Below are positions 1 through 44,993 of a stretch of DNA of 64,000 nt, in pieces (position 1 is the first letter of the stretch; each line of letters starts with the position of its first letter). A program made the position numbers and the translations under genes. Under the pieces are notes generated by a model. The model worked only from the letters and a program-made list of their open reading frames with translations. It was not told the origin of the DNA and did not search any database. The DNA is from Brevibacillus brevis. Its GTDB lineage: Bacteria > Bacillota > Bacilli > Brevibacillales > Brevibacillaceae. The stretch spans positions 3,237,501-3,301,500 of the forward strand of contig NZ_CP134050.1 of the NCBI RefSeq assembly GCF_031583145.1, in the 5' to 3' direction.

Positions 1-526
1 GCGGAATCAGGAAAGAGACAGACGTCAGCACGCTCGTTTCAGAAAGCGCGGTGACGAGCGGCCCTAGGAAGAACCCCTCGACCTCCATCGCCTCTTTGCC
101 GTCTTCGCCGTGGACTTCAACGATCGCCTCCAGGGCGAGAGCCACACCCGGAAGGTCTGCGGCGGAATCCGCGTGGGCGAGATTGCCGCCTACCGTTCCC
201 TTGTTGCGTACCTGCAAGTCCCCAATCGTGCGGGCAGCCTCCCCCAGGACCGGGATGTGAGCCTGAACCAAAGCGTCCTGATAAAGCGCCCGATGCGTCG
301 TCAAAGCTCCCACGACCAGCCGGTTTCCTTCTTTGCGAACGCCTCTCAGCTCGGTGATCTGGCTGATATCGATTAGCACGCCCGGATTGGTCAGACGAAA
401 CTTCATCAGCGGGAGCAGGCTATGTCCGCCGGCAAGAAACTTTCCTTCCCCATTGCTCTCGTGCATCAGATGAATGGCTTCCTCGATCGAACCTGCGCGA
501 ACGTAGTCAAACGAGCTGGGTATCAT
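1..526 (-). CDS. coxM: CoxM-type FAD-binding subunit of a molybdenum hydroxylase (C-terminus beyond the window)
   Basis: This is the medium flavoprotein subunit of a CO-dehydrogenase/xanthine-dehydrogenase-type complex. It passes electrons from the [2Fe-2S] small subunit to FAD. The ATG at 526 overlaps the coxL stop as ATGA, which supports translational coupling and fixes the start. About 175 residues are visible, against roughly 280-290 for the family, so the C-terminal part lies left of the window. Both FAD motifs are present: AGGHSLLPLMK near residue 32 and TVGGNLAHADSAADLP near residue 110. It is the last visible gene of coxG-S-L-M. The substrate of the complex cannot be read from this subunit. 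Confidence 0.9.
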   Translation of the reverse strand, partial: MIPSSFDYVRAGSIEEAIHLMHESNGEGKFLAGGHSLLPLMKFRLTNPGVLIDISQITELRGVRKEGNRLVVGALTTHRALYQDALVQAHIPVLGEAARTIGDLQVRNKGTVGGNLAHADSAADLPGVALALEAIVEVHGEDGKEAMEVEGFFLGPLVTALSETSVLTSVSFLIP

Positions 527-2871
527 GCATTCTCCCTCCTGCTTTGCATCGCTCTCCACACCTTTTCCGGCGTGAGCGGCATATCCAGATCCTTGATGCC
601 AAACGGACGCAGCGCATCCATCACCGCATTGACCACAGCCGGCGGCGCTCCCGTCGTGCCCGTCTCCCCGACTCCTTTTGCGCCAAGCGGGTTCACCGGG
701 GACGGATTCTCGGTAAAGCGGGATTCGATGGTGGGGAAAAACCTCGCTTTCGGCATGGCGTAGTCCATGAACGTGCCGGACAACAGCTGTCCGTTGTCGC
801 TGTAGACCGCGCCTTCCCACAGCGCCTGACCGATTCCCTGGGCGACCCCGCCGTGCACCTGGCCCTCCGCCAGCAGCGGATTGATGACGCGTCCGACGTC
901 ATCGACGGCGACGTACCGTTTCAATTCAATTTCGCCCGTCTGCCCATCCACTTCCACGACGCAGATGTGAGCGCCGAACGGATAGACGAAATTGGGTGGA
1001 TCAAAGAACGACTGCCCTTCCAGTGCCGGTTCCACGCCATCGGGAAGGTTCCAGGCAAAGTTGGCCGATTTGGCGATTTCCTGGAAGGTGCGGCTTCGTT
1101 CTGGAGCACCGATCACCCGGAATACGCCCTCGGAAAACTCCACATCCGTGGCTGAGGCTTCCAGTTCGTGCGCGGCAATCGTTTTCGCTTTCGCAACTAC
1201 GCGGTCGGCCGCGATGGCCACCGCCGCCCCTCCGACTGCCGTATTGCGGGACCCGTACGTCCCCCAGCCCATGGAGACGCTGCGTGTGTCGCCGGATATC
1301 AGCTCGATGTCGTCGATTGGGATGCCCAGCTTCTCCGCAACGACCTGGGCGAACGTAGTTGCGGTGCCCTGGCCGTGGGGGGAGGTTCCGGTGAAGACCG
1401 ACACCTTGCCGCTCGGATGGACCCGAACCGTGCTGTTTTCCCACACGCCGCCCATAAATCCGATGGCCCCCGCCACTTTCGACGGACCGAATCCGCAGAG
1501 CTCCACATACGTGGAAACGCCGATCCCCAGCCATTTGCCTTCCTGGCGCAAGCGCTCCTGCTGCTTGCGAAGACCCTCATAGTCGACGATCTCCAGCGCC
1601 TGACCCAGCGTATCTTGGTAATTGCCGCTGTCATAGGCCACGCCCATCGCCGTACTGTACGGGAACGCCTCATGCGGGATCAGGTTTTTGCGCCTGACCT
1701 CGACCGGATCCATTCCGATCTCCTGCGCGAACAGATCGACGATGCGCTCGATCTGGTAAGCCGCTTCCGGCTTGCCCGCTCCCCGGTACGCGTCGGTCGG
1801 AGTCGTGTTGGTGTAGACGCCGTACGTGACGACAGCTGCTTTCGGAATGGTGTAGGCGCCAGTCACCATCAGTCCAAAGTCGATCGTCGGACAGCCTCCG
1901 CCAAACGTGGACAGATACGCTCCCAGGTTGGCGGTATTTTTCACGCGGATCGCGGTAAACGTGCCATCCCGCTTCCCGGCCAGCTCTACCTCGATCACTT
2001 CGTCACGGGCATGCGTGGTCGCCATGAAATGCTCTTTCCGCTCTTCGATCCATTTGACCGGGCGCTTCAGATCGCGCGCGGCATGGCCGATGACGGCTTC
2101 CTCATTGTAGGTAGCGATTTTGGAGCCGAATCCCCCGCCTACGTCAGGAGACACCACGCGCAGCCTCGTTTCCGGAATCCCCAGCACATCCGCATACACC
2201 ATCCGGTGGATGTGCGGATTTTGCGAGGTGCACCAGATCGTCAGCTCGTCGCTGCCTGGATTGTACTGCGCGACCGCTCCCCGCGTTTCGATCGGATTGG
2301 GGATGACGCGCTGATTGTAGAGGCGCTGTTTGACGACCACCTCCGCCTCTGTGAATTCCTCGTCCGGCACCTCCCCTGCCTTCCACAGCAGGGCCAGATT
2401 GTTTTCCACATCATCGTGGACAAGCGGTGCTCCTTCTGCAAGCGCTGCTTCCTGGTGCACGACCGCAGACAATTCCTCGTACTCCACTTCGATCAAATCC
2501 ACGGCGTCCCGGGCGATGTATCGGTTTTCGGCAACGACCAGGGCGACGCACTCGCCGGCGTAGCGCACTTTGTCCACGGCCAGGGCGCTGCGGTCCTTCG
2601 CTTTCAAATTGGCACCCGTCACATACCACATCGTGGGCACCGCTTTCACTTTTCCGATCAGATCCTGCCCCGTATAAACGGCAACCACTCCGGGAAGCGC
2701 AAGCGCCCCGTCAGCGTCGATCGCTTTGATCCGCGCATGCGCATGGGGGCTGCGGACAAATGCACCGTACAGCATGCCCGGCAATTTGATGTCATCCGTA
2801 AAGCGCCCGTTCCCAGTGATCAGTTTGGGGTCTTCCTTCCGCTTGAGCGGAGCTCCGATCATCTTGGCCAT
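523..2871 (-). CDS. coxL: CoxL-type molybdopterin large subunit, form II
   Basis: This is the catalytic molybdenum-cofactor subunit (782 aa) of an aerobic CO-dehydrogenase-like hydroxylase. The ATG at 2871 lies 2 nt after the coxS stop with a GGGAGGGAC ribosome site; the open frame continues further upstream only as a shadow of coxS. Visible motifs are GGGFGSK near residue 247, the active-site loop AYRGAGKPEAAY near residue 360, and the conserved catalytic glutamate in KGVGETGTTGAPP near residue 733. Form I CO dehydrogenases carry AYRCSFR in the loop; AYRGAG is the form II signature, and form II enzymes mostly have unknown substrates. I therefore call the family with confidence but not CO oxidation. 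It overlaps coxM by 4 nt. Confidence 0.93.
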   Translation of the reverse strand: MAKMIGAPLKRKEDPKLITGNGRFTDDIKLPGMLYGAFVRSPHAHARIKAIDADGALALPGVVAVYTGQDLIGKVKAVPTMWYVTGANLKAKDRSALAVDKVRYAGECVALVVAENRYIARDAVDLIEVEYEELSAVVHQEAALAEGAPLVHDDVENNLALLWKAGEVPDEEFTEAEVVVKQRLYNQRVIPNPIETRGAVAQYNPGSDELTIWCTSQNPHIHRMVYADVLGIPETRLRVVSPDVGGGFGSKIATYNEEAVIGHAARDLKRPVKWIEERKEHFMATTHARDEVIEVELAGKRDGTFTAIRVKNTANLGAYLSTFGGGCPTIDFGLMVTGAYTIPKAAVVTYGVYTNTTPTDAYRGAGKPEAAYQIERIVDLFAQEIGMDPVEVRRKNLIPHEAFPYSTAMGVAYDSGNYQDTLGQALEIVDYEGLRKQQERLRQEGKWLGIGVSTYVELCGFGPSKVAGAIGFMGGVWENSTVRVHPSGKVSVFTGTSPHGQGTATTFAQVVAEKLGIPIDDIELISGDTRSVSMGWGTYGSRNTAVGGAAVAIAADRVVAKAKTIAAHELEASATDVEFSEGVFRVIGAPERSRTFQEIAKSANFAWNLPDGVEPALEGQSFFDPPNFVYPFGAHICVVEVDGQTGEIELKRYVAVDDVGRVINPLLAEGQVHGGVAQGIGQALWEGAVYSDNGQLLSGTFMDYAMPKARFFPTIESRFTENPSPVNPLGAKGVGETGTTGAPPAVVNAVMDALRPFGIKDLDMPLTPEKVWRAMQSRRENA

Positions 2872-2873
2872 TG

Positions 2874-3398
2874 TTAACGTCCCTCCCCTGCATTGGCCAT
2901 CGCTTGCTTCGTCTCCTCGGCCTCTCGGATCAGCTTCGCCGCGTGCTGCACCGCGCTGACGATAAATTGGTAGCCGGTGCACCGGCAAATAACCCCTTCC
3001 AGTCCGTCGCGGATCTCTTCCTCGGACGGATCGGGGTTCTCTTTGAGCAATCCGACCATCGCCATCATGACGCCGGGCGTGCAAAAGCCGCACTGCAGGC
3101 CATGCTTCTCCCAGAATCCCTGCTGGATCGGATGCATCGCATCCATCTGGCCAAGTCCTTCCACCGTGGTGACCGCAGCCCCGTCGGCCTGCACTGCGAG
3201 CATCGTGCAGGATTTGACCGCTTCGCCGTTGACCATGACTGTACAGGCTCCGCATTGGCTGGTGTCGCAGCCGATGTGAGTGCCCGTCAGATCAAGCACG
3301 TCTCGCAGAAAGTGGGCCAAAAGCAGACGCGGCTCCACCTCCGCTTGCCGCAGGGCGCCATTTACCGTTACCGAAATGTGTTTGGTGACCGTCACCAT
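2874..3398 (-). CDS. coxS: CoxS-type [2Fe-2S] small subunit
   Basis: This is the iron-sulfur subunit (174 aa) linking the Mo site of CoxL to the FAD of CoxM. The N-terminal plant-ferredoxin-type cluster is ligated by Cys44, Cys49 and Cys52 (GCDTSQCGAC) with Cys64. The C-terminal cluster uses QCGFCTPG and CRCTGY near residues 102-140. The ATG at 3398 follows an AAGGAGGTGC ribosome site; a TTG directly before it is a less likely start. Length and both cluster motifs match the family closely. The order coxG-S-L-M puts this gene second in the visible operon. Confidence 0.94.
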   Translation of the reverse strand: MVTVTKHISVTVNGALRQAEVEPRLLLAHFLRDVLDLTGTHIGCDTSQCGACTVMVNGEAVKSCTMLAVQADGAAVTTVEGLGQMDAMHPIQQGFWEKHGLQCGFCTPGVMMAMVGLLKENPDPSEEEIRDGLEGVICRCTGYQFIVSAVQHAAKLIREAEETKQAMANAGEGR

Positions 3399-3420
3399 CA
3401 AGCACCTCCTTGTTTCTTCC

Positions 3421-3879
3421 TCATTCGGAATGCGATGCTGCCAGCAGCTTCATTTCCTTGTCTGCCGCTTTGAAAAATTGGCCCACGATCATTTTGGCAA
3501 CGCCCCCCATCACCCGCTGTCCCACCGATGCGAGGACGCCCGTTACTTGCACGTCTGTTTTGCACGTCAGCAAGGTCCCTTGTTCCACTTCGTCCAGCTG
3601 CATATCAGCCACCGCGTCAATTTCCCCCGGCAGTCCTTTGCCGTGAACGAGCAGACGGTAGGAGGCCGGCTGCTGTTGGTCCACTTGTTGTACCTGGCCG
3701 GTAAACAAGCCTTTTACCGGGCCAACGCTGATGCCCATCTCCGCTCGGTAAATCCCCTCCTCCATCCGTGAAAACGATTTACATCCTGGAATGGACTTCC
3801 TCAGGACCTCTTCATCCTGAATCAGCTTCCAAACGATGTCTCTTGGTATGTCGAAGGTGTATGTATGCTCCAGCTTCAC
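3421..3879 (-). CDS. coxG: CoxG-family (SRPBCC fold) accessory protein
   Basis: This 152-residue protein belongs to the CoxG carbon monoxide dehydrogenase subunit G family (SRPBCC/START-like fold). Members commonly accompany Mo-hydroxylase operons and have been linked to membrane association of the enzyme. I chose the GTG at 3879 because GGGAGGG lies just upstream and the encoded protein starts with the usual beta-strand KLEHTYTFDIPRD. An in-frame extension to 4050 has lysine-rich, non-homologous sequence and no ribosome site. Family features seen are VGPVKGLFTG in the middle and the C-terminal helix region with SVGQRVMGGVAKM. It is the first gene of the visible cox operon, 22 nt ahead of coxS. 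Confidence 0.85.
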   Translation of the reverse strand: MKLEHTYTFDIPRDIVWKLIQDEEVLRKSIPGCKSFSRMEEGIYRAEMGISVGPVKGLFTGQVQQVDQQQPASYRLLVHGKGLPGEIDAVADMQLDEVEQGTLLTCKTDVQVTGVLASVGQRVMGGVAKMIVGQFFKAADKEMKLLAASHSE

Positions 3880-4397
3880 TATGCTCCCTCCCCGTTCGGA
3901 CTTGTGGTCTGGAGGTTTGAACATGCTGTCGCCTAGAAACAGAGCAACAATCGTGCCATTTGCATTTACCTGAATTTTCACTATTTTATCTGCGCGCTTT
4001 TTCATTTTTGAAACGTTGCCTTTCAGTTTTGAAAAGGCCTTGTCATGCAAAGCGGGGCCATCTCTTTGCGGTTATTCACCGCTTTGGGACAGCCCCTTTT
4101 ATTCTATCGCATCGCTGGCGGTGACGGAGCAAGACGCGCGGGAAGCGACAGGTGGTTGGAGAGTCCGCAGAGCAAAGTCGAGGCCCATTCGGTTGTTCCT
4201 CTTTCCGCAAATAAAAAGACAGCTGCTGCCATGGGCTTGAAAGTAACGTCCCAGGCTGCAGCTGCTTTTCCTCACAATCGAGCCTATTTATTGAGAGGCA
4301 CTCCCTCTCCCCGTCACGAATGATGGCGTCGATTCCTCCACCTATATCGCTGCCATGAAGCTCGTGTTCGCCTATTCTTGTGCCAAGGGTCAAAATG
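3880..4397. other. Intergenic region between coxG and the nik operon
   Basis: About 520 bp without a convincing gene. It should contain the coxG promoter, since coxG is the first gene of its operon, but I could not identify clear -35/-10 boxes. Open frames here lack ribosome sites and recognisable sequence. I see no hairpin followed by a T-run that would clearly end nikE. Confidence 0.5.
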
Positions 4398-5231
4398 CTA
4401 TCTCTCAGCCGTTTGCGTTTGAACACGATTGCATGAAAAGGCACGGTGACGAGGGTGCTCGGGAAGAATGGACGAAATCAGGCTTTTCACAGCAGGATGA
4501 GAAGAGGCAAAAATCCCATCTTTATCGTGGCACATCTCGACGACTTCCCCCTTTTCCATTACCGCTACCCGATCAGAGATAGTGTAGGCCGCTTTTATAT
4601 CATGAGTAATAAAGAGGTACGAAAGGCCAAATACCGACTTCAATTCGCCAAACAAGCGCAGGATGTGCATTTGATTCACCATGTCCAAGCTGCTTACGGA
4701 TTCATCCAGCACGATCAATTTCGGCTTCAAAGCAATGGCCCGAGCAATATTGATTCTCTGTAACTGTCCACCGCTAAATTGGCGAGGGTATTTCCGCATA
4801 TCCGCAGGAGTCAATCCCACCATTTCAAGCAGTTCCCCAATTCGTCGCTTTTGCTCGCTTATCGTCAACTTCTCATAGTTATCCAACGGTTCTCCGATGA
4901 TCTGTTCAGCGGACATTCGTGGATTTACTGCTGAGTAACAATCCTGGAAAACCACTTGAAGATCCCGGCGGAGTTCTTTGCGGGTACTGGAATCCGCTTT
5001 ATACAGATCTTTTCCTTGAAAAATAACCTGTCCTTGCCGGGGCCTCATCAATCCTAAGATCACTTTGCCCAGTGTACTTTTCCCGGCACCGCTCGTTCCC
5101 AGGAGTCCCAAACACATTCCTTGTTCGATCGTCAGAGAAACGTTTGAAAGAACCGGTTCGCTCCTGCCTGATCGATGAAACAGCCCTGTCTTCCCATAGG
5201 CATGGGTTACTCCTTTTACCTGAAGTAACAT
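4398..5231 (-). CDS. nikE: NikE-type nickel/metal ABC transporter ATP-binding protein
   Basis: This is the second ATPase (277 aa) of a nickel-peptide-type ABC importer and works on the cytoplasmic face with NikD. Motifs: Walker A GTSGAGKST near residue 46, Q-loop VVFQD, signature FSGGQLQR near residue 153, Walker B LIVLDE near 171, and the switch histidine in FITHD. The N-terminus LQVKGVTHAYGK and the overall sequence follow E. coli NikE more closely than DppF or OppF. It is the last gene of the nikABCDE operon and begins 57 nt after nikD. The metal is inferred from family resemblance; cobalt or a metallophore complex is possible. Confidence 0.85.
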   Translation of the reverse strand: MLLQVKGVTHAYGKTGLFHRSGRSEPVLSNVSLTIEQGMCLGLLGTSGAGKSTLGKVILGLMRPRQGQVIFQGKDLYKADSSTRKELRRDLQVVFQDCYSAVNPRMSAEQIIGEPLDNYEKLTISEQKRRIGELLEMVGLTPADMRKYPRQFSGGQLQRINIARAIALKPKLIVLDESVSSLDMVNQMHILRLFGELKSVFGLSYLFITHDIKAAYTISDRVAVMEKGEVVEMCHDKDGIFASSHPAVKSLISSILPEHPRHRAFSCNRVQTQTAER

Positions 5232-5288
5232 GTGCTCACCTCCACTTGCGAAAAGTCACGGGGTAGACTGTAGAATTTGAAAAAATAG

Positions 5289-6110
5289 TTAACGATCATT
5301 GTACTGCCTCAAAGGGAACGCAGGTCTGTGATTCAGCAATTCTTTCGTATACGAATGCTCGGGGTGGTCAAACAGGTGAAAGACATTCCCTTTTTCCACA
5401 ATACGTCCATGTCGCATGATGGCGACCTCGTCAGCCAATTCAGAAATGACACCCAGATCATGGGAAATCAACAGGATCGACGTACCGCATTCCGAGCGAA
5501 GCCGGTCAAGCTGTTTCAGCACCTGTTTCTGATTGGTTACATCCAACGCGGTAGTAGGTTCATCTGCAATGACAACGGATGGCCGCAGGCACATGGAAAT
5601 CGCGATCATTACTCGCTGCAGCATCCCGCCGCTCAACTGGAAGGGATACATTTTCATCAATTTGCATGGCTCCGGCAGGTTCATATCCGTCATCGAAAGA
5701 ACCGCCAACTCGCGGGCTTCCTTTTTAGTCAGCGAAGTATGGATGCGAATCGTTTCTATGAATTGGTTACCGATCGTATAGACCGGTGTAAAGGCATTCA
5801 TCGGATTTTGCATGATCAAAGCCATTTCCTTGCCGCGTATCCGCCTCATTTCCTCCGCTCCGATGCCGTTCAGCTCTCGACCATTCAATTGAATGCTGCC
5901 TTCTACTATGGTATTTTGGCGATCCAGCAGCTGCATGATGGAGTGACAGGTCACCGTTTTCCCGCAGCCGCTCTCCCCTACAAGACCTAGCACTTGACCA
6001 CGCTTCAAGTCAAACTCAACATCCTGAATCAAGGAGAACGTCCCTTGCTCCCCTTTTCCCTTTACGCACAGCCCGCTGACCTGCAGTACCTTATCTGCTT
6101 TTTCGTTCAT
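5289..6110 (-). CDS. nikD: NikD-type nickel/metal ABC transporter ATP-binding protein
   Basis: This is the first ATPase (273 aa) of the importer. Walker A is GESGCGKT near residue 43, the signature is LSGGMLQR, Walker B is SVVIADEPTTALD, and the switch histidine is in LISHDLG. SGGMLQR and IMQNPMNAF are typical of NikD. I chose the ATG at 6110; the open frame extends far upstream but only as a shadow of nikC, whose stop lies 14 nt before this ATG. The ribosome site is weak (GGGTTGAGAG), which is consistent with coupling to nikC. Confidence 0.86.
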   Translation of the reverse strand: MNEKADKVLQVSGLCVKGKGEQGTFSLIQDVEFDLKRGQVLGLVGESGCGKTVTCHSIMQLLDRQNTIVEGSIQLNGRELNGIGAEEMRRIRGKEMALIMQNPMNAFTPVYTIGNQFIETIRIHTSLTKKEARELAVLSMTDMNLPEPCKLMKMYPFQLSGGMLQRVMIAISMCLRPSVVIADEPTTALDVTNQKQVLKQLDRLRSECGTSILLISHDLGVISELADEVAIMRHGRIVEKGNVFHLFDHPEHSYTKELLNHRPAFPLRQYNDR

Positions 6111-6124
6111 TCTCTCAACCCTAT

Positions 6125-6970
6125 TCAAAAACGACGTTTGACTCCAAACCGCTCCGATAAAGCTTCTCCTAACAGATTGAAAGCAATGACGACAAACAAG
6201 ATCATCAATCCCGGATAAATCATTAATTCGGGGTGGCTTCGGATAAAGTTTTTTCCTTCGTGGATCATGCTCCCCCATTCGGGAGTGGGCGGCTGAATGC
6301 CCAGTCCCAAGAAAGACAGCGCAGAGATGTCCATGATCGCCCATCCCATTTCCAATGTTCCCATCACGAGAATCGGTGGCAGCACATTGGGAATCAAGTG
6401 CTGCCTGATGATCTTCCATGGGGAAGAGCCGCTGATTCTGGCGGCAGTTATAAAATTTTGCTCCATCAAGCTGACAACCATGCTGCGGAACATGCGAGCG
6501 TAGTATACCCATTGTACCATCATCAAAGCGAGAACTACCTGAATCAGCCCGGGGCCGAATATCCCCACAACCCCCAAAACAAGCACGAGATTCGGAAAAG
6601 CCATGATCCCTTCGCAGAACCGCATCAGTACGGCATCCACCCAGCCGCCTTTATATCCCGCGATGGTACCAACGATTAAGCCGATTCCGATTGCCGAAGA
6701 AAAAATCAGGAAGGCAAACCCTAGCGATATTCGGGTAGCATGCAATAGTCGAGAGAAAACGTCACGTCCCAAATGGTCGGTCCCCAGCAGATACTCGGAT
6801 GAAGGAGGCTTCAATTTCATCGCCAGATTGACTTTGATTGGATCGTGAGGGGAAATCCAGGGGGCAAACACGGCAATACCGGCAAACATGATCAATATGA
6901 TAGAGCAGATGGCAATGGTTTTCTGACTCTTGAGGATGGTCCCTATTCTCGCGATCACTGGTCGGTTCAT
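6125..6970 (-). CDS. nikC: NikC-type nickel/metal ABC transporter permease
   Basis: This is a membrane permease (281 aa) of the nickel/peptide ABC family. It has an N-terminal transmembrane helix (ICSIILIMFAGIAVFAPW), the periplasmic signature LLGTDHLGRDVFSR, and the EAA loop region ITAARISGSSPWKIIRQH that docks on the ATPases. The ATG at 6970 overlaps the nikB stop by 4 nt (ATGA), which fixes the start; the longer frame has no ribosome site. It pairs with NikB to form the channel. Confidence 0.88.
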   Translation of the reverse strand: MNRPVIARIGTILKSQKTIAICSIILIMFAGIAVFAPWISPHDPIKVNLAMKLKPPSSEYLLGTDHLGRDVFSRLLHATRISLGFAFLIFSSAIGIGLIVGTIAGYKGGWVDAVLMRFCEGIMAFPNLVLVLGVVGIFGPGLIQVVLALMMVQWVYYARMFRSMVVSLMEQNFITAARISGSSPWKIIRQHLIPNVLPPILVMGTLEMGWAIMDISALSFLGLGIQPPTPEWGSMIHEGKNFIRSHPELMIYPGLMILFVVIAFNLLGEALSERFGVKRRF

Positions 6971-7899
6971 CCTTTCACAGAAATTCGGGGGTCCATGTAT
7001 AGCTGCAAAATATCCACAATCAGGTTGCATAGGATGAATAAACAGGCAGCAAAAATAACATAGCTTTGGATGACCGGAATGTCCCGATTAAAAATCGCCT
7101 CGACAAAATAACGACCAAACCCTGGCCACGAAAACACTTGCTCCACAATAATCGTACCTGTCATCAATTTCCCCATGTTCATGCCCAGGCCTGTGATGAC
7201 CGGGGCAATGGCAATTTTCAACACATGCTTCAGCATGATCGATCTCTCTCGCAAGCCGCGCGTTCGCGCATACAAGACATACGACTCCTGCAATTGCTCC
7301 AGTACGCTCGCCCGCAGAAGCCGGGTGTAGATCGCGATCAGAGCCAAAGACAACGTCACGGACGGAAGCACCAAATGCTCCCAGGAACCCCTTCCTTCAA
7401 CCGGCAGCAAGTCCAGCTTGACCGAAAAGAAAAAGATCAGTAAGTATCCCAACCAAAATTGCGGAATCGAGGCTCCGAAAAAAGAAAGAAGTCTACTGAA
7501 TTTATCAATCAGGCTGTTTTTATAGACCGCAGACAAAAAACCGAGCGGGATGCTGATCAAAACGGCCAGCACGATACTGCTGACAGCCAGTTGCAACGTC
7601 GCAGGGATTCTCGCAGCAATTTCATCGATAACAGACTCATTCGTCAAATAAGATTTGCCGAAATCAAGTCGGCAAATCTTTATAACGGTTTGAAAATACT
7701 GAACGTACAGAGGTTGATCCAAGCCAAATTCATGCCTTTTCTGGGCCAGAAGCTCCTCTGTCGGATGAATATGGGCTGCTGTCAAATACGCCTCAGCCGG
7801 GTCTACCGGCGAAATGCGAATCAGCACAAAAGTAACGAAGATGGCGAAAAGCACGATGGGAATGACAGCAAGAATTCGCTTCCCGATATAGCTGACCAT
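6967..7899 (-). CDS. nikB: NikB-type nickel/metal ABC transporter permease
   Basis: This is the first permease (310 aa) of the importer. It starts at an ATG behind GCAAGGAGGAAC. It has an N-terminal helix (VIPIVLFAIFVTFVLIRI), the family block FGLDQPLYVQYFQ, an EAA-like loop with YARTRGL, and the C-terminal run FNRDIPVIQSYVIF that resembles E. coli NikB (FNRDYPVIQ). It overlaps nikC by 4 nt and begins 18 nt after nikA. Length is usual for the family. Confidence 0.9.
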   Translation of the reverse strand: MVSYIGKRILAVIPIVLFAIFVTFVLIRISPVDPAEAYLTAAHIHPTEELLAQKRHEFGLDQPLYVQYFQTVIKICRLDFGKSYLTNESVIDEIAARIPATLQLAVSSIVLAVLISIPLGFLSAVYKNSLIDKFSRLLSFFGASIPQFWLGYLLIFFFSVKLDLLPVEGRGSWEHLVLPSVTLSLALIAIYTRLLRASVLEQLQESYVLYARTRGLRERSIMLKHVLKIAIAPVITGLGMNMGKLMTGTIIVEQVFSWPGFGRYFVEAIFNRDIPVIQSYVIFAACLFILCNLIVDILQLYMDPRISVKG

Positions 7900-7917
7900 G
7901 AAGTTCCTCCTTGCTGT

Positions 7918-9543
7918 TTACTCCCCGAACTCAATCCCGTCAAATGGGTGTTCATCCCGATTCGCCGGGAAACGGAATGCTTTCACGTTTTTCTGGTAGA
8001 CCACGGTTTTCTTGATGTACGAGACTGGGACAATTGCCGACTGCTCTTGCAATGTCGTCAAAATCGAAGCATACAACTGCTGCCGCTTCGCCTCATCCGT
8101 AGAGGCCAGTGCTTCCCGTACCTTCTCGTCCAACTCCTGTTTCATCGGCAAGCGCGAGTGTGCCTCCGAAACTCCCCAACCTTTTTCCGCGACCACATTG
8201 ATGAAAGAGTGCGGATCGTAAGGAGCTCCGTAATTGTACCAGAAGTCAATGTCAAATTCGCCTGCTTTTCTACGCTTGATTTGAGCCGTTAATTCAAGGC
8301 CCGTAATGTTCAGCTTGACGCCAATTGCTCCCCATTCTGCTTGCAGCGTTTCTGCCATCGCTTTTTGAATCGGGTCCGTTTTATCGTAAATCAATTCAAG
8401 CTCCAGTGGCAGCCCGTCCTTTTCACGGACTGTTTTGCCTGCTGGCAGCTTCCATCCTGCTTCTTCCAGAGATGCTATCGCTTTGTCAACATTGTATTCA
8501 ACCGGCTTGCTCTCCACATTTGTATACGGGAAGTTCTTGGACAAAATATTGTCAGCCTTCTCTTCCAAGCCAAGCGTGATGCCTTCTACCATCGCCTGTT
8601 TGTTAAAGCCTTGTTGAAGCGCCATGCGTACCCTCAGGTCAGCAAGCTTTTCATTGGTGGTATTCAACAGCAAACTTCTTGTTCCGACTGGTTCCGAAAG
8701 TTCGGAACCATACTTGCCGGATTCTCTCAATTGATTGAAAGAATCCATGCTGATAACGCCTTCCCCATAAATCAGATCCAGCTCGCCTTTCTCAAAAGCC
8801 ATGACCCGCGTCTCGGCGTCAGGGATAATTTTCACGGTCACCTTATCGATCTTTGGACTTTCTCCCCAATAATTTGGGTTGCGGGTAAACACTGCATACT
8901 CATCTTTTTTGTAATCAGCCAGCAACCACGGGCCGGTTCCGACAGGTTTTTTTACTCCTTTGGAAGTGTCGCCGTCATCAGGAAAACCAGCTTCACCCAA
9001 AAAACGAACAGGACGGACCAGCGACAAATCCTGCAATGTCGGATAATAAGGTTTCTTCAGAATCATTTTGAAGGTGTGCTCGTCTACCACCTCTGTTTTG
9101 TCCAGAACGTTGATAACCCCAAGCCAGCTATGTAGTTTGGGATTGCTCATCACCGCATCAAAGTTCTTTTTCACAATGGCTGCAGTAAATGGCGTCCCAT
9201 CCGAAAATTTCACATTTTTGCGGAGGGTAAACGTATATTCTTTTCCATCCTTCGATATCGACCATGATTCGGCAAGAAGGGGTTCCAGCTTGCCTCCTTC
9301 TTTGTAGCTCACCAACGGTTCATAGATCATCGATTGGGCAAATAATTGGGAAGGGTTATATGTATGTGGGTTCATTTGCCCGATATCCCTTGGCCAAGAG
9401 ATTGTGACCCCCTTCTCAGCTGGAGAAGCTCCTTGTTCCACTGTTGTTGCATGTTCTTGTTTCGTGCAACCGATTAGAGCGGTCGATACGAGTAGGATGA
9501 TTCCTACCATCAACAAAAATGCCCTTTTGCCTCCATTAGACAT
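7918..9543 (-). CDS. nikA: NikA-type metal-binding lipoprotein of the ABC importer
   Basis: This is the extracellular solute-binding lipoprotein (541 aa) of the importer. The signal peptide ends in the lipobox LIGC, with the lipid-anchored Cys at about residue 26. Diagnostic stretches match NikA rather than generic oligopeptide binders: IGQMNPHTYNPSQLFAQS near residue 54, GTGPW, and NYGAPYDPHSF near residue 430. NikA binds nickel through a small chelator; the related CntA binds metal-metallophore complexes, and I cannot separate the two from sequence. The ATG at 9543 follows AAAGGGGAC. The operon is preceded by a promoter with two Fur-like boxes, suggesting control by iron or by a related metal-sensing Fur-family protein rather than by NikR. 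Confidence 0.88.
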   Translation of the reverse strand: MSNGGKRAFLLMVGIILLVSTALIGCTKQEHATTVEQGASPAEKGVTISWPRDIGQMNPHTYNPSQLFAQSMIYEPLVSYKEGGKLEPLLAESWSISKDGKEYTFTLRKNVKFSDGTPFTAAIVKKNFDAVMSNPKLHSWLGVINVLDKTEVVDEHTFKMILKKPYYPTLQDLSLVRPVRFLGEAGFPDDGDTSKGVKKPVGTGPWLLADYKKDEYAVFTRNPNYWGESPKIDKVTVKIIPDAETRVMAFEKGELDLIYGEGVISMDSFNQLRESGKYGSELSEPVGTRSLLLNTTNEKLADLRVRMALQQGFNKQAMVEGITLGLEEKADNILSKNFPYTNVESKPVEYNVDKAIASLEEAGWKLPAGKTVREKDGLPLELELIYDKTDPIQKAMAETLQAEWGAIGVKLNITGLELTAQIKRRKAGEFDIDFWYNYGAPYDPHSFINVVAEKGWGVSEAHSRLPMKQELDEKVREALASTDEAKRQQLYASILTTLQEQSAIVPVSYIKKTVVYQKNVKAFRFPANRDEHPFDGIEFGE

Positions 9544-9802: not shown

Positions 9803-10051
9803 GTTATTTGATCATCCGATAGAATGGGAATATATTTTAAAACATCTATTCGATGGCGTGAAACAACTGACAGCCCAAAAGAGGAAAATGAATAATCTGG
9901 ATGAAGAAGATGCTAAGGAAGCTATTGCAGCTCTTTACAGCGGGCCTGAGATATGGCGTGTTTACTTTCTGGGTTGTAAGTTGGGAGGTTTTCGACGCGG
10001 AGAGTTACTGGCAGTCGATTTGAGACATCCAATGATTTTGAGGTATTCTGT
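9803..10051 (+). pseudogene. Tyrosine recombinase (integrase) core remnant
   Basis: Translation gives the end of the core-binding domain (PIEWEYILKHLFDGVK) followed by the box-I region YFLGCKLGGFRRGELLAVDL, where RRGE contains the first catalytic arginine of tyrosine recombinases. Nothing of the C-terminal catalytic part follows: at 10052 the sequence runs straight into a truncated tRNA-Gly 3' half. No start codon with a ribosome site is visible. It looks like the right-hand end of an old integrative element, in the same integrase-then-tRNA order as at 57.2-57.7 kb. Confidence 0.65.
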
Positions 10052-10100
10052 ATCGAGCGGGTGATGGGGAGCGAACCCACGCTACTAGATTGGGAAACTA
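10052..10100 (-). repeat. Degenerate att-like copy of the tRNA-Gly 3' half (copy A)
   Basis: This 49-nt segment matches the 3' half of the intact tRNA-Gly at 57611-57684 with about five mismatches. It lacks the 5' half, so it cannot be a tRNA gene. The bases beyond it (to about 10205) resemble those beyond copy B at 11838-11942, including a CCCTTG hairpin. I read it as an old attachment-site scar. Confidence 0.75.
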
Positions 10101-10136
10101 CATTTTAGTACATATGATACCCGAGCAGATTGTAAG

Positions 10137-10160
10137 AACCCTTGAATTACAAGGGCTTTT
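10137..10160 (+). terminator. Hairpin with T-run beside att copy A
   Basis: CCCTTGAATTACAAGGG forms a 6-7 bp stem followed by CTTTTCTT. A near-identical hairpin lies at the same distance from att copy B, so it belongs to the element end. Confidence 0.5.
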
Positions 10161-10261
10161 CTTATTCGCATTCGTTTGTATCTATGCTGATTTTTGGGCT
10201 TCCAAGAAAAATGCCTATGCAGTCCAAACAAAATACCAGCCTTAGTGCAAGCTACCTTGCT

Positions 10262-10350
10262 TTATTCAAAACAAAGATCGATGAACACCGGTGAGCCCTG
10301 CATCCCACTATTCGTCCAGTTCCGGAATTTCACCGTTCCCGTCCAACTTG
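10262..10350 (-). pseudogene. Remnant of the C-terminus of an ATP-dependent DNA ligase
   Basis: The minus strand reads VKFRNWTNSGMQGSPVF and ends at a TAA, closely matching the C-terminus of the intact ligase at 12013-12882 ([17 protein letters not shown]). The rest of the gene is missing. Its position relative to att copy A is the same as that of the intact ligase to copy B, so it marks the left end of a second, gutted element. Confidence 0.6.
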
Positions 10351-10596
10351 TATTTCAAGTTCGATGTCGTGGATGGGAGATCACCCTTTCCCACTTCTAA
10401 AGAGAGGTTTATTGTATGAATCTAAGGCGGCTGCTAAAATACCCTATTACTAGTGAAAGATTTAGGAGGACAACTGATGTTCGAGTAAAACCTCCTTTCC
10501 TTTTATGCCTTTCTTTCATAGGGATGAAAGGACCAATACTGTCTGTAAGAAAGCCACTTCAACTTTACGCGCGAAGAGAGGAATAGGTGAAACATT

Positions 10597-11181
10597 TTGA
10601 AAGCGAATCGGATGGAAGCGTTTAGCGATGGCGTGTTGGCGATTATTATTACGATCATGGTCCTGGAACTTAAAGTGCCTGAAGGCCATGACTGGTATGC
10701 GCTGATCGAGCTTGGCCCCAAAATTTTAAGCTACATCTTCAGTTTTGTATATATCGGCATCTACTGGAACAATCATCATCATCTACTGCACATGGTTCGA
10801 ACGATGAACGGGCGTTTAATGTGGCTCAACTTGCTGCTTCTTTTCTGGTTATCCCTTGTGCCGTTCACAACAGCTTGGATGGGGGAAAGCTATTTTGCAG
10901 CCACACCAACGGCGCTGTACGGTATTATTTTGCTACTTGCGGCGTTCTCGTACTGGCTTCTTCAGCGCGCGATTATTAGCCAGCATCCCGGAGATTCCTC
11001 ATTTGTTCTGGCGATGGGCAGAAACTTGAAGGGGAAATTATCTCCCGTGCTCTACTTGATCGCGGCCTTGACCGCATATGTGAGTCCATGGATATCCGGC
11101 TTCTTTTTCCTCCTTGTTGCAGTAGTCTGGTTCTTACCGGATAAGCGAATCGAGCATGCCCTGCGAGGCCATCAAAATTGA
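10597..11181 (+). CDS. TMEM175/DUF1211-family potassium channel protein
   Basis: This 194-residue membrane protein carries the family signature FSDGVLAIIITIMVLELK at residues 9-26; bacterial TMEM175 homologues form tetrameric K+ channels. Further hydrophobic segments lie at about residues 42-58, 75-96, 105-125, 148-165 and 168-182, consistent with six helices. The TTG start at 10597 has AGGTG 7 nt upstream; the first ATG (10612) would remove the residues before the signature but has poorer spacing. It stands alone between two att scars, so it is probably a survivor of an otherwise deleted element. Confidence 0.85.
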   Translation: MKANRMEAFSDGVLAIIITIMVLELKVPEGHDWYALIELGPKILSYIFSFVYIGIYWNNHHHLLHMVRTMNGRLMWLNLLLLFWLSLVPFTTAWMGESYFAATPTALYGIILLLAAFSYWLLQRAIISQHPGDSSFVLAMGRNLKGKLSPVLYLIAALTAYVSPWISGFFFLLVAVVWFLPDKRIEHALRGHQN

Positions 11182-11788
11182 ACAAGTTGTTCGAGCCCCG
11201 AAGCAGTAACCTTTACGTTTTCCCCGACATTGTACTGTGTTTTATCTGTCTGAATACCCCCGATCGGTCGTTGGGTTGTGGTGAAATGTGCGACACCTGC
11301 ACGCCGATCCGGGCAGGACGGAAGGAATCGGAACACCCTTACCTCCTCACATTTCAGCGACCTTTGCCAGAAAATATCCCGTGTAGCGACAACGGTTCAC
11401 ATTACCACGCAAAATGCCGACGGAGACTTAAAGTGAAATATGAAATTGCTTGGCGATCTTTTCCCCTTCCTTAATGCCCAAAAAGTCCCTATGAAGATTG
11501 TAAGGAGCTAAGGCTTGTTCCCTACGACTCAAAGTGCCTGTTGTGCCGTAACGTGTCGTTGAAACTCCGTTAGGAAAGACTCCCGTTCTTGGAGGAATCC
11601 AACCTGAATCCACGGCATAGGCAACAAACCCCTTTAACAATAGACAAGCTGATAACCAAATCCGTTTGCGTTCCCGGTCGATTCGGTCGGAAATTCCCGA
11701 CTGGATACAGCCACATCGGGCCGGATCATCTCCTACGAAAGCACTAACAGAAAAAAATTGATTTCTCAAGGCTTTTTTCACTTTCTGT
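11182..11788. other. Non-coding stretch between the TMEM175 gene and att copy B
   Basis: About 600 bp without a supported gene. A minus-strand open frame (11428-11817) starts inside the tRNA scar and has no ribosome site; its residues are unfamiliar. At 11750-11777 a degraded copy of the tRNA-Gly terminator (TTGATTTCTCAAGGC) precedes att copy B, matching the terminator beside the intact tRNA at 57.57 kb. Confidence 0.45.
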
Positions 11789-11837
11789 ATGGAGCGGGTG
11801 ATGGGAATCGAACCCACGCTACTAGCTTGGGAAGCTA
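11789..11837 (-). repeat. att-like copy of the tRNA-Gly 3' half (copy B)
   Basis: These 49 nt are identical to 57610-57658, the 3' half of the intact tRNA-Gly including the CCA end. The 5' half is absent. Such exact 3'-end duplications are produced when a tyrosine-recombinase element integrates into a tRNA gene. Copies B and C are in direct orientation and enclose 45.8 kb. Confidence 0.85.
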
Positions 11838-11870
11838 AAATTTGGTGCTTATTATATCCGAGCCAATCTT

Positions 11871-11897
11871 AAAAACCCTTGATTATCAAGGGTTTTT
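11871..11897 (+). terminator. Rho-independent-type hairpin beside att copy B
   Basis: AAACCCTTGATTATCAAGGGTTT forms a stem of about 10 bp followed by TTC. An equivalent hairpin lies beside copy A. Confidence 0.6.
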
Positions 11898-12012
11898 CTC
11901 GTTCGCATCCGTTCGTATCCGTGTGAATTTTTGTGGTTCCAAGTAAAGCTCGTCCCCAAACCGTCCCCCGTCCGTCAGCGCTGGCCAAACAAAAAGCCCG
12001 CCTTGTGGCGAG

Positions 12013-12882
12013 CTAACTTGCTTTATGCAAGACAAAATCTACGAACACCGGCGACCGTAGCATCCCGCTCTTGGTCCAGTTCCGAAACTTCACCGTCGCC
12101 TGCAGCCTCGGCTCCAGGTAGACGAAGTTTTTATCCTCACCGCTCACCAACTGACTACACACTCGACGGAATGCCTGCTTGTGGATTGGAGGCACACCCA
12201 ATTCAATCACACCAGCCGGCCGGAGTCGCCCGTTCATACCCATCACGGAGGCGATCCAACCGAAGTCCTCTTTCCGATACCCGCTGATATACACGTCCGC
12301 ATACTGGTAATTGATCACCTTCACCCAGTCCGCCGATCGCTTCTCGATGTACGTACTTTCCTTCCGCTTGCAGACGATGCCCTCCTGGCCCTGCTGTTTG
12401 ATGGCCTCGAACAATGCGGTACCTTCTTTCTCGACGAATTGGATCTTGTCAATGTGTGGCGTATCCGGAACGACGGAGTCCAGGATCTCCTTTCGCTCCA
12501 GCAAGGGTAGCCCTCGCAGACCCTTGCCGTCGTAGTGCAGAATATCGAACACCATAAGGCCGACTGGTTGCCTTTTTGCCGCTGCTGCGATCCGCGAAGT
12601 TCCTTTGGTATGGAACCGGCTCATCATCAGTTCGAAGTCGATCTGATCGTTCTGATCGATGCAGTAGACCTCGCCATCCAGAATAACATCCTGGTTGATC
12701 GGCAGGATGTGCAGCTCTGGATACTGTGCTGAGCATTCGTTGTGATGCCGAGTGTACAGCGTAGTTGCTCTGCCCATCTTGCTCAAAATCAGCCTGTGCC
12801 CATCGATTTTGGGCTCGTATATGAATCGGCCGTCGTCAAACGGTGTTTCTTGTTGCTCCAATAGCATAGGTTCTAGGAACAT
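12013..12882 (-). CDS. ATP-dependent DNA ligase (phage/element type)
   Basis: This is a compact ATP-dependent DNA ligase (289 aa) that would seal nicks through a ligase-AMP intermediate. The adenylation motif I is EPKIDGHR near residue 25, with the nucleophilic Lys in KIDG. Motif III is VFDILHYDGKGL and motif IV is EGIVCKRKES; the OB-fold region follows. Housekeeping bacterial ligases use NAD, so this is an accessory gene resembling the SPbeta prophage ligase YoqV. The ATG at 12882 has AAGGTG 6 nt upstream; ATGs at 12888 and 12918 are alternatives. The last part of its coding sequence is duplicated at 57135-57204 and, more diverged, at 10262-10350. It sits just inside the left att site. Confidence 0.87.
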   Translation of the reverse strand: MFLEPMLLEQQETPFDDGRFIYEPKIDGHRLILSKMGRATTLYTRHHNECSAQYPELHILPINQDVILDGEVYCIDQNDQIDFELMMSRFHTKGTSRIAAAAKRQPVGLMVFDILHYDGKGLRGLPLLERKEILDSVVPDTPHIDKIQFVEKEGTALFEAIKQQGQEGIVCKRKESTYIEKRSADWVKVINYQYADVYISGYRKEDFGWIASVMGMNGRLRPAGVIELGVPPIHKQAFRRVCSQLVSGEDKNFVYLEPRLQATVKFRNWTKSGMLRSPVFVDFVLHKAS

Positions 12883-13418
12883 TAACATCACCTTATGCCA
12901 TTGTAGCAATCGATTCATCCTGCAAGGTTGGGAATGGCTGGGTGCCTGTTGAGCAAAATTTAAAGTGAGAATCTCTTACAAATTTTCCTACTCCAGAAAA
13001 TCCCACCCTGCTTCCGAGGCGGTATGAAGGAACCTTCCACGAAATTAATTACCTATCGCTCTTGGAACAGCGGTTGAAACCATTCCTCTCAAGGGGATCT
13101 CGCCCAACAAATCGGGCCCTCCAATTAAATTCATGATTGGGAAGGGTAAGCTTGTTTGCTTCGAATTCTACCGATTATCAACAGTAAAATAAAACTTTAC
13201 TCAAGATGAACGACTCTGAACTAAATGTCGTCCTCACCCTTATAGGAAAAATTAGCACCAATTTTACAAGCAGATTTGATAAATTTTGCAGAAAATTTTA
13301 TTTTTAAGTTGTGCCCACCGTTACTTCCAGTTTATAGAAAATGTATTATATTATGGTATTCGTTAGTGATCATACACCGTTTAATTTTGTTGTGAAATAG
13401 AAAAATGAGGTGATTATA
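12883..13418. other. Intergenic region upstream of the amidase cassette
   Basis: About 530 bp without a gene. It marks a shift from moderate G+C to strongly A+T-rich DNA near 13.15 kb. The divergent promoters of the ligase and of the small membrane-protein gene should lie here; I could not assign boxes with confidence. Confidence 0.4.
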
Positions 13419-15106: not shown

Positions 15107-16564
15107 GTCTGTAAAATAACTTGTGTAAACTCTCAACCTCTAAACTACAATTAGTATTAGAAAGGTTGGGAGATTTTTATGATGTCAAAAGAGCAGATCA
15201 AGCAGTGGATCAAGGAGAAAAACATGAAGTCAGTGGACGATGTTCAGTCAGCGTTAAAGGATCTATTCGCAGACACGATCCAGGAATGCTGGAAGCTGAA
15301 ATCGAGTCCTCTCTTGGATACGCTAAGCATGACATGAAAAACAAGCGGACAACCAACAGCCGAAATGGATACAGCAAGAAAACTGTCCGTTCCGAATACG
15401 GGGATGTTGACATCCAAGTCCCTCGAGATCTAGACGGTGATTTTGAGCCGAACATTGTAAAGAAACATCAATCCAATGTGACAGGGATCGAAGATCAGAT
15501 TCTTGCCCTCTATGCCAAAGGCGTATCCACACGCGATATCCACGACCATCTGCAGCAGTTCTATGGCATCGACGTCTCACCAACGCTCATATCGAATGTA
15601 ACGAATAAGATTGTGCCGATGATCAAAGAGTGGCAAAACCGCCCCTTGCAAGCGGTTTATGCTGTTGTTTTCCTTGACGCCATTCACTTTAAGGTAAAAC
15701 AGGACGGAGCTATCGTCAATAAAGCCGCCTATATGGTAATTGGTATTGACCTTGACGGTCATAAAGATGTGCTTGGGATATGGATTGGGGAGAACGAATC
15801 GGCGAAATTCTGGCTGCATGTACTCAATGAACTGAAAAATCGTGGGGTCCAGGATATTCTCATCACAAGCGTCGATAACCTTCGTGGTTTTACAGAAGCC
15901 ATTTCAGCATGTTATCCGAAGACGGAGATTCAGAAATGTGTCATCCATCAAATTCGAAATTCCATAAAGTACGTTTCCTATAAGGATCTAACAAAGATTA
16001 CGTCCGAGCTGAAACCCATTTATAAAGCTCCAACGGAGCAAGCCGCGTTAGAAGAGCTCGAGCAGTTTGAGCAAACCTGGGGCAGTAAATATCCCTTAAT
16101 GGTTCGTTCCTGGCGGAATAACTGGGACGAAATTGCCACCTTCTTTAAATATCCCCCAGAGATTCGAAAGCTGATCTATACAACCAACGTCATCGAGAGT
16201 TATCATCGACAGCTTCGAAAGGTGACAAAGGGAAAAACCATGTTTCCTACAGACGATGCTCTTATGAAGATGCTGTATCTCGTAACCATAGATGTTCTGC
16301 GAAAGTGGACGGGACGAGTCCAGAACTGGAGCCAGATTCTCTTACAGCTATCTGTTTTCTTTGAGGATCGTGTACAACCGTACATCCGCTAACCAATGAA
16401 AGGCTTCATCCCCATAGGGATTTTCTTTCTCTCCACCAATGCGTCCAGGGTTCGCTTCGCCTTACGCCCTTGACTCTATTGGCTTCGTAAAAGACGTCTC
16501 AATTAGGGGGAGGAAACCTTTTCATATATCGGTTGATTGAGTTTACACAAAAATCTTGACAGAC
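15107..16564 (+). mobile_element. IS256-family insertion sequence
   Basis: Imperfect 26-bp terminal inverted repeats start with GTCTGT and end with TTGTGTAAACTC (15107-15132 and, inverted, 16539-16564; about 21 of 26 match). One transposase gene lies inside, inactivated by a frameshift. I see no clear 8-9 bp target duplication. Its right end cuts a crotonase-like gene, leaving only a fragment. Confidence 0.85.
15179..16392 (+). pseudogene. IS256-family transposase with an N-terminal frameshift
   Basis: The start ATG at 15179 begins MMSKEQIKQWIKEKN and the frame stays homologous to IS256 transposases up to ADTIQE. At about 15285 the homology moves to the -1 frame with MLEAEIESSLGYAKHDM. Restoring one A (CAG GAA ATG CTG) would join them, so a single-base deletion is the likely cause. 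The downstream part is complete: VFLDAIHFKVKQDG holds the first acidic residue of the DDE triad, and the C-terminal block has TTNVIESYHRQLRKVTKGK. The element is probably not autonomous. Confidence 0.85.
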
Positions 16565-41070: not shown

Positions 41071-42282
41071 TTAATCCTGCTCAGGTTCTATGACATCAAT
41101 CGTCGTAAGATTTCCGTTTTTTACTTGTTTGATATAACCTGTAGATGTAACGGATCGATCCTCTTTAAATATAGTTGTACCAACAATTGGTGTACTAAAT
41201 TTTTTAATTTGCAAAAGGGCATCCAAAGCGTTTGCACCTGAAATTTCTTTGTTTTCACTGGTCATTTTTTTGATCATATCACTTGCCATGTAAACGACAT
41301 CATTGTAGGCTGCAATCAAGGTTAAAGTAGCTGGTTTTCTTCCGTAAGTAGTGCTAAATAATTCCTCCAACTCTTTAATTTTTGGATTCGATAAATCATT
41401 TGTATTTTGTGTTACGATGATTCCCTCAGCATCAGCTCCCGCTTGTTTTACAACAGCTTCCCCGATCAGTGTAGCGGCAGTTGTAATTTGCGCATTAATT
41501 CCTAATTGGCGGGCTTGTTTTATTGCAAAAGCCTGTTCGCCTGGCTGCGCTTGGATATGCAGGATGTCAGGATTTGCAGACTTAATTTTTATGAGCTGGG
41601 CGGAAAAATCTTTTGTTTGCGGTGGATATGACTCAAAAGCAACCACTTCACCACCGTTTTTGGTTATCGTATCTTTAAAGACTTGTGCCGGATAAGTTCC
41701 GGAGTCATTGTTGATATACAAAACCGCGCCTCTTTTGACTCCAAATTTTTTCGTAACATATTCAATCGTTTTTTCAACATCAAAATCTGTCAAAATCGTT
41801 GACGTACGTGTAAAGTTCCCTAATTTTTTCGTATTCGGGGATCCAGCTCCGGTACTGAGTACCAATACTTTATCTTCTTCGGCAAGTGGTGCGATAGCAC
41901 TGACAACGGAGCTCCAACCTGAAATGATAATGGGCACTTTATCAATATCAACAAGTTTTCTGTATGCTGTAATCGCACGTTTCGGATCGGCAGCAGAATC
42001 TTCAAAAACAGGTTCTAATGGGACCCCGTTCACTCCCCCATTGTCGTTAATTGATTTTACTGCCAACTTTACAGCATCTCTTAAATCCTCCCCAATAAAG
42101 GCTTCTTGACCTGTCAATGCGACTAATACTCCAAATTTATACGACTTGGCTGCGCCAGTTCCCTGATTATCCTTTGGCGATGAACCACTAGACTGGTTTG
42201 AATTTGCACAACCGACCATTGTAACCACCATAAGGAGTGTCAACAAAAAGATGAATATTTTTTTCCAATAGAGAAAATTCAT
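41071..42282 (-). CDS. livK: LivK-type substrate-binding lipoprotein
   Basis: This 403-residue periplasmic-binding-type lipoprotein has a signal peptide ending in the lipobox MVGC (Cys at about residue 25) and then a Ser/Gly-rich linker. The Peripla_BP_6 fold follows: FGVLVALTGQEAFIGEDLRD, SAADPKRAITAYRKLVD, and VLVLSTGAGSPNTKK. It would deliver the substrate to LivHMGF. Its ATG overlaps the stop of the acyl-CoA ligase by 4 nt. This coupling of uptake and CoA activation suggests that the substrate is a carboxylic acid. Confidence 0.9.
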   Translation of the reverse strand: MNFLYWKKIFIFLLTLLMVVTMVGCANSNQSSGSSPKDNQGTGAAKSYKFGVLVALTGQEAFIGEDLRDAVKLAVKSINDNGGVNGVPLEPVFEDSAADPKRAITAYRKLVDIDKVPIIISGWSSVVSAIAPLAEEDKVLVLSTGAGSPNTKKLGNFTRTSTILTDFDVEKTIEYVTKKFGVKRGAVLYINNDSGTYPAQVFKDTITKNGGEVVAFESYPPQTKDFSAQLIKIKSANPDILHIQAQPGEQAFAIKQARQLGINAQITTAATLIGEAVVKQAGADAEGIIVTQNTNDLSNPKIKELEELFSTTYGRKPATLTLIAAYNDVVYMASDMIKKMTSENKEISGANALDALLQIKKFSTPIVGTTIFKEDRSVTSTGYIKQVKNGNLTTIDVIEPEQD

Positions 42283-44137: not shown

Positions 44138-44172
44138 TTGTAAATATTCCAATTACATTTGTCCTGCTAAGG

Positions 44173-44967: not shown

Positions 44968-44993
44968 AGAAAGTTTCCCCTTTTTTTATCTTT

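Follow-up and report, generated by a model that had tools for sequence, protein, structure and literature searches.

A tRNA-Gly(CCC) gene of Brevibacillus brevis as a probable site of repeated temperate-phage integration and decay

The stretch of DNA analysed here, hereafter the window, comprises 64,000 nucleotides of the 6.23-Mb genome of Brevibacillus brevis (G000:C1:3237501-3301500). Its right part carries an intact tRNA-Gly(CCC) gene, and partial copies of this gene, integrase remnants and ligase sequences recur to the left of it (Table 1). An earlier note on this DNA, made from the sequence alone, had described three sites: at 10.05 kb an integrase core running into a degraded tRNA-Gly 3' half, followed by a hairpin and a ligase remnant; at 11.79 kb the same order of tRNA half, hairpin and ligase, with the ligase whole; and at 57.2 kb an integrase C-terminus preceding the intact tRNA. 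All three descriptions were borne out when the window was examined again and compared with the genomes of the genus (26, its own included), as shown by the identities collected in Table 1.

Table 1. Features of the window, with positions counted from its first nucleotide.
Feature	Position	Strand	Basis
Right part of xanthine-dehydrogenase/CoxL-like and CoxG cluster (cox)	523-4050	-	Pfam; collinear block
Nickel/peptide-type ATP-binding cassette (ABC) transporter operon (nik)	4398-9543	-	Pfam
Integrase remnant (G017 integrase residues 162-227), attributed to the oldest element, pointing at the tRNA half	9822-10019	+	blastx 55%, E 2e-21
Degraded tRNA-Gly 3' half, putative left attachment site of second element	10053-10101	-	88% over 49 nt
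Degraded arm tract with hairpin, paired GTCCCC motif missing	10102-10260		alignment with 11.79 kb tract
Ligase C-terminal scar (residues 274-298)	10265-10339	-	64% aa, E 6e-5
TMEM175-family channel gene, cargo of gutted element	10597-11181	+	Pfam PF06736
Terminator-like hairpin beside tRNA 3' end, putative right end of second element	11746-11789		G017 likeness
tRNA-Gly 3' half, putative left attachment site of third element	11790-11838	-	98% over 49 nt, ungapped
Putative attP-arm tract with hairpin and paired motif GTCCCC-N4-CGTCCCC (11952)	11850-11968		phage match, motif
Whole ATP-dependent ligase, SPbeta LigB relative	12013-12918	-	Pfam; 38% to SPBc2 yoqV
Mutator-family transposase	15121-16392	+	Pfam
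Cargo: acyl-CoA dehydrogenases, electron transfer flavoprotein (ETF), thiolase, AMP-binding (CoA-ligase-type) enzymes, branched-chain-type ABC transporter, lyase, asparaginase	18438-56446		Pfam
Integrase-core (rve) transposases within cargo	33.8 kb; 36.3 kb (below cut-off)		Pfam
Short insertion-sequence-like remnant, 27-nt inverted ends, abutting ligase scar	56614-57135		inverted ends
Third ligase C-terminal scar (residues 273-297), fused to integrase	57135-57209	-	92% aa, 96% DNA
Integrase C-terminal remnant, attributed to the youngest element	57232-57492	+	Pfam PF00589; 78% to G007 remnant, 64% to G017 integrase
Second copy of paired motif GTCCCC-N4-CGTCCCC	57498-57514	+	pattern search
Intact tRNA-Gly(CCC), target site	57611-57684	-	ARAGORN

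Partial copies of the tRNA were sought over 144 kb, a range made up of the window with 60 kb on its left and 20 kb on its right. The halves starting at 10053 and 11790 and the intact gene at 57611 lie in direct order on one strand, and their decay rises outward, from 100% identity for the gene to 98% and then 88% for the halves. All other places of the scanned range stayed below 60%, and 20 mononucleotide shuffles peaked at 59% or less; the best other 24-nt tRNA matches reached 71%, within the range of the shuffles (up to 75%). The earlier note had proposed to look leftward for an additional tRNA-Gly half, and none at 60% or more over 49 nt was found in the 60 kb scanned on that side. In the whole genome, the tRNA matched the two truncated copies and three sequences at whole length (92-94%), which are taken to be other tRNA-Gly genes, the remaining matches being short or weak.

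The resemblance of the two left tracts extends beyond the tRNA. Positions 10046-10336 align with 11783-12096 at 73% over 315 columns, the tRNA half, the hairpin tract and the ligase end being collinear. The better preserved hairpin tract (11850-11968) was found to be 80.7% identical over 119 bp (E 1e-22) to 28 Paenibacillus phage records among the matches listed; 38 records matched in total, 31 of them from Paenibacillus, and some of the 28 are duplicates of one phage. At the matching position 23 of these 28 records annotate no feature and five a hypothetical protein. In phage Bob the tract stands after the integrase gene, where the phage attachment site attP is expected, and we infer that the window's tract is a putative attP arm. 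The paired motif, searched as GTCCCC-N2..6-CGTCCCC, occurs in the 144 kb in the two copies of Table 1 only, and 50 shuffles together gave a single hit. It is also present near both ends of the prophage of relative G017 described below and at the end of the Bob integrase gene, and could represent an arm-type site of the integrase. Since the arm tract is phage-like and the paired motif is present at both places, the sites at 11.79 and 57.6 kb resemble a left and a right end, respectively, of one type of element.

Beside the tRNA, the tyrosine integrase family is represented by remnants only in the window and by an open frame in G017. The 57.2 kb remnant covers residues 291-392 of the G017 integrase and has no overlap with the 9.8 kb remnant. 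At 10.05 kb the integrase codons and the letters of the tRNA overlap in a short stretch, GAGCGGGTGATGG in the half, which is probably a deletion joint, and a deletion would also account for the ligase end joined to the integrase end at 57.2 kb. C-terminal integrase remnants were detected at the tRNA-Gly of other relatives as well, namely G007 (72%), G010 (56%) and, weakly, G015 (33%).

The ligase scar next to the 57.2 kb integrase remnant is an addition to the features listed in the earlier note. Several ligase scars break near the same codons (VKFRNWT); these shared breakpoints are suggestive, and a detection bias is possible, since a fragment can be detected only if it holds that conserved stretch. 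C-terminal scars of LigB-like ligases are frequent in genomes of the genus (L076-L092), with no intact tRNA in the fetched stretches. The ligase was also considered as a general mark of element ends and rejected: at 49 loci with ligase-related sequence ARAGORN detected no tRNA, and the sequences downstream of the ligase end, read by eye, look unrelated to that of the window. The order of tRNA half, hairpin and ligase is therefore peculiar to this site, the hairpin tract being its sole general component.

With a tRNA-half pattern allowing at most three mismatches, a limit that excludes the too degraded 10.05 kb copy, 12 of the 26 genomes matched, and two matches were found only in the window's genome and in G017. 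The second tRNA-Gly half of G017 is located 57 kb from the tRNA. Thirteen of the 15 proteins scanned in this interval matched PHROG families (the integrase included, and one protein only to families of unknown function), and its genes encode the small and large terminase subunits, a portal protein, a head maturation protease, a tail sheath and an endolysin. The integrase is an open frame of 402 codons that adjoins the tRNA, and the Bob integrase (56%) was the best of 2828 records matching it. G017 apparently carries a complete tailed prophage at the same tRNA; beyond this prophage more than 100 kb (interval G017:C1:3138987-3317817, 179 kb) were scanned for tRNA-Gly halves and contained none. 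Positions 11746-11833 of the window, tRNA half included, are 93% identical to the G017 stretch left of and at attL, the left attachment site. The ends observed in the window are read as those of temperate prophages, given that the hairpin tract has its phage counterpart next to an integrase gene and that G017 has a prophage at this very tRNA.

The same arm was also found at other tRNA genes. Positions 11838-12013 served as query against the 26 genomes, and the best 12 of 49 rows from outside the window's own genome (E 3e-14 or better) were analysed, the remaining rows being mostly short hairpin matches; the 12 loci were compared with three tRNAs only, tRNA-Ala(GGC), tRNA-Val(GAC) and tRNA-Gly(CCC). 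A tRNA 3' half adjoins the arm at five of them, from tRNA-Val at L194 and L204 and from tRNA-Ala at L202, L203 and L205. The half at L204 is 2.2 kb from an intact tRNA-Val. At L205, in G009, an intact tRNA-Ala(GGC) is followed by one half 1.4 kb on and by another 2.0 kb further, both at 98%, and an integrase C-terminal remnant stands just past the middle half; two gutted elements (L205 1615-5071) retain a SET-domain gene and a beta-lactamase-family gene. L205 is an independent tandem pair of gutted elements, and the window's 1.74-kb element with the TMEM175 gene matches them in size and kind. At L195 a weaker tRNA-Ala half is found 4 kb off. An inversion of tRNA-Ala in L203 was considered and rejected, the nearby gene being a different tRNA-Ala isogene. 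At L196, L197, L198 and L200 the arm adjoins a common non-tRNA stretch (ACATGCCCC, T or G, TATGCGG), which might be an alternative target at the end of a zinc-ribbon gene, the gene itself being a guess.

The length of the site varies widely among relatives. A chromosomal marker situated 23.6-26.1 kb left of the window start was found on one contig with tRNA-Gly in 11 of 14 relatives (on separate contigs in G015, G025 and G030). The distance from marker to tRNA is 7.7 kb in G010, 7.8 in G011, 8.9 in G020, 13.9 in G021, 14.7 in G031, 15.6 in G022, 18.2 in G008, 22.3 in G006, 33 in G033, 49 in G007 and 179 in G017, against 81 kb in the window's genome. No second tRNA-Gly half at 68% or more was detected in the 10 other genomes whose whole marker-to-tRNA interval was fetched. 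The last stretch shared with relatives stops 13.45 kb left of the window start. In G006 about 200 bp separate its end from tRNA-Gly, so that about 71 kb (-13.45 to 57.61 kb) are extra relative to G006. The site of G006 is near-empty, though the tRNA itself is inverted there; relative to the chromosomal flanks, tRNA-Gly(CCC) is inverted in G006 (L115), G021 (L118) and G020 (L120). A stretch of about 130 bp located about 12 kb left of the window start (L096 7997-8137) is similar to the end of a group II intron; it is found again close to tRNA-Gly in G007 (three times), G015 and G030, as well as within the G017 prophage interval.

Tyrosine integrases that target tRNA genes rebuild the tRNA on the integrase side and leave the displaced 3' half on the opposite side, beside the attP arm. 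We consider it very probable that tRNA-Gly(CCC) is a long-lived site of serial temperate-phage integration and decay, through related tyrosine integrases and attP modules, and that scars of these events frame islands of other genes. The attP of an incoming phage would recombine with the 3' half of tRNA-Gly; the integrase side would regain a whole tRNA, and the former 3' half would remain at the far side beside the attP arm. The prophage would then decay by deletion and insertion sequences, parts of its ends being kept, and the next phage would enter the rebuilt tRNA and shift the older scar outward. If the order of events is read from the divergence of the scars, the layers would be an oldest element ending at 10.05 kb, the gutted TMEM175 element between 10.05 and 11.79 kb, and the ends of one or two younger elements, which would frame a 45.8-kb metabolic island (11.79-57.61 kb). 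Left ends are recognised at 10.05 and 11.79 kb and, from the ligase scar there, at 57.1 kb; right ends lie at 10.05, 11.79 and 57.6 kb. Three of each mean at least three insertions, and four is the simplest reading of the ligase scars. The earlier note had proposed three successive elements. The succession of related elements, the gutted one with the TMEM175 gene and the large island all stand; as to the number, the third ligase scar favours four, and four insertions probably took place.

Several observations weigh against serial prophage insertion as an explanation. The G017 prophage shares integrase, target and paired motif with the window, but nothing at its attL matches the window's arm tract; since the arm tract is unshared and a tail sheath is present, it is not the same kind of phage throughout. 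The ligase was found in none of five virus records with a related integrase, records that may be fragments, and a ligase fragment accompanies the arm at one of the 12 loci, about 6 kb away. Seven of these 12 loci have no adjoining half of the three tRNAs compared. Between 11.15 and 11.80 kb a search revealed no integrase remnant, which leaves the second element without a recognised integrase, and the terminator hairpin left of 11.79 kb could be native, as it resembles one outside the attL of G017. Finally, phage structural genes are absent among the 32 proteins of the 11.79-57.6 kb interval scanned with Pfam, smaller open reading frames being outside the scan, and a PHROG scan of three island proteins gave no phage structural gene either. 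The large element is now no prophage and is merely framed by prophage ends. Among the same 32 proteins, with the same limit on small reading frames, no relaxase, coupling protein or mating-pair gene was detected.

According to the earlier note the cox and nik operons could belong to the first element, and their synteny in strains lacking an insertion at tRNA-Gly was named as counter-evidence. Such synteny was not seen: in the 11 genomes whose distance from marker to tRNA was measured, none of the coxL matches (E 1e-150 or better) falls between the two, and the nikA matches of at least 50%, among the matches listed, come from six other genomes, all outside this set of 11. An arrival of cox and nik with the first element is compatible with their position inside the 71-kb segment absent in G006, but no tRNA half bounds them on the left. 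The chances are evenly balanced that they came instead by chromosomal rearrangement or with another mobile element. For this speaks the behaviour of the cox block as a discrete unit: its left limit lies about 10.43 kb before the window start and its right limit at 3.9 kb, and it is collinear in G017, collinear apart from 2-3 kb of additional internal sequence in G002 and G009, and looser in G007 and G011. Its right-hand neighbours differ among G017, G007, G011 and G002 and are common to G002 and G009. In G017 and G007 a long distance separates the block from tRNA-Gly, in G011 the two are on different contigs, and in G002 and G009 the place of tRNA-Gly(CCC) was not located. The nik operon, 78.6% identical at the DNA level to that of G013, has no tRNA gene around it in the 80 kb examined there. 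The missing left tRNA half also fits such an origin, as does the group II intron-like stretch that lies between the cox block and the chromosome, about 12 kb to the left of where the window begins. The points opposed to it are that G006 lacks the segment from -13.45 to 57.6 kb, its last shared stretch coming to within about 200 bp of tRNA-Gly, and that an integrase remnant sits exactly between the two operons and the first tRNA half.

A single large island with an internal duplication, the 10.05 kb tract being an old segmental copy of the 11.79 kb tract, is improbable. Such a copy would explain why both tracts align over their full length, ligase end included, and why the search between 11.15 and 11.80 kb revealed no integrase remnant. 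On the other hand, the 10.05 kb tract has the order and orientation of an attL, the integrase remnant stands directly outside it, as expected of the right end of a previous element, and small separate elements at other tRNAs bear this arm as well, a tandem pair among them. The last alternative, in which the 9.8 and 57.2 kb integrase pieces are one split gene and everything between them was inserted into it, finds some agreement in their lack of overlap and is nevertheless highly improbable, each piece pointing at its own tRNA 3' end, loss of the rest of the gene being common (C-terminal remnants stand beside tRNA-Gly in G007, G010 and, weakly, G015, and beside tRNA-Ala in G009), and the divergence being unequal (55% vs 64-78%, though the compared regions differ too).

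Serial phage insertion and decay remains our explanation of the tRNA-proximal scars, and it places this site beside known cases. Tandem accretion of ICESt1-related elements was reportedly described in Streptococcus thermophilus by Pavlovic et al. in 2004, a study cited by PMC5704250 and PMC4891358. That type of accretion has in common with the present case a site-specific integration, a decay that keeps attL and attR (the left and right attachment sites) and the arrival of a new element next to the old one at the same site; it differs in that the elements there are conjugative, whereas prophage ends at a tRNA gene are found here. Accretion is described as an integration, the reduction of the element by decay with both attachment sites retained, and then a second integration (PMC5704250). 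Composite islands at the Klebsiella asn tRNA genes (tDNAs) are ascribed to tandem accretion (PMC4891358); they are alike in being composite and built by accretion and unlike in elements, hosts and cargo. The Paenibacillus larvae phages of the Bob/Vegas group share the arm tract (81% over 119 bp), an integrase 56% identical to the G017 one and, in Bob, the paired GTCCCC; in contrast, the fetched 11.2 kb of Bob contain no tRNA-Gly half, and the next annotated gene past its integrase is not a ligase. SPbeta LigB (yoqV) is, like the window's protein, an ATP-dependent ligase (38% over 93% of the length), which in the window sits at the left end of the element. No account of this tRNA-Gly site was found in the titles and abstract openings searched, whose coverage of the literature is partial. 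The case is a further instance of known tandem accretion, here with prophage ends.

It follows from such a history that one tRNA site can grow a variable segment of 71 kb by repeated phage insertion and decay, and the arm tract is a short DNA marker with which scars of this sort were located at three tRNA genes of a single genus. A metabolic island between tRNA halves is not necessarily a conjugative element, and its ends may stem from vanished prophages. It is also conceivable, though rather unlikely, that the 45.8-kb island is a trans-mobilisable unit without its own integrase, which a related phage integrase of the G017 type might excise with restoration of tRNA-Gly; this idea derives from the 98% core at one end of the island, the intact tRNA at the opposite end and the copies of the paired motif close to each of them. 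Gutted prophage ends would in that event act throughout the genus as frames capturing cargo such as the TMEM175 gene.

The TMEM175 gene (10561-11190) is 92-93% identical at the DNA level to G002, G009 and G023, over the gene alone, and its flanks had no match in the 16 kb fetched from each of these genomes; it looks like a single-gene transfer. In the island, positions 41071-47693 are represented in the other 25 genomes of the genus only by short pieces (at most 417 bp, 66-90% identity). The transposases at 15.1, 33.8 and 36.3 kb and the remnant at 56.6 kb suggest that the metabolic genes may have entered by transposition. We take this remnant to be of IS30 type; the 84-aa open reading frame inside it had no Pfam match. 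In the cox cluster, the CoxL-like frame (523-3255) encodes 910 aa, several relatives having an in-frame stop and a frame of about 783 aa, and in the window's genome the gene may be fused with its upstream neighbour.

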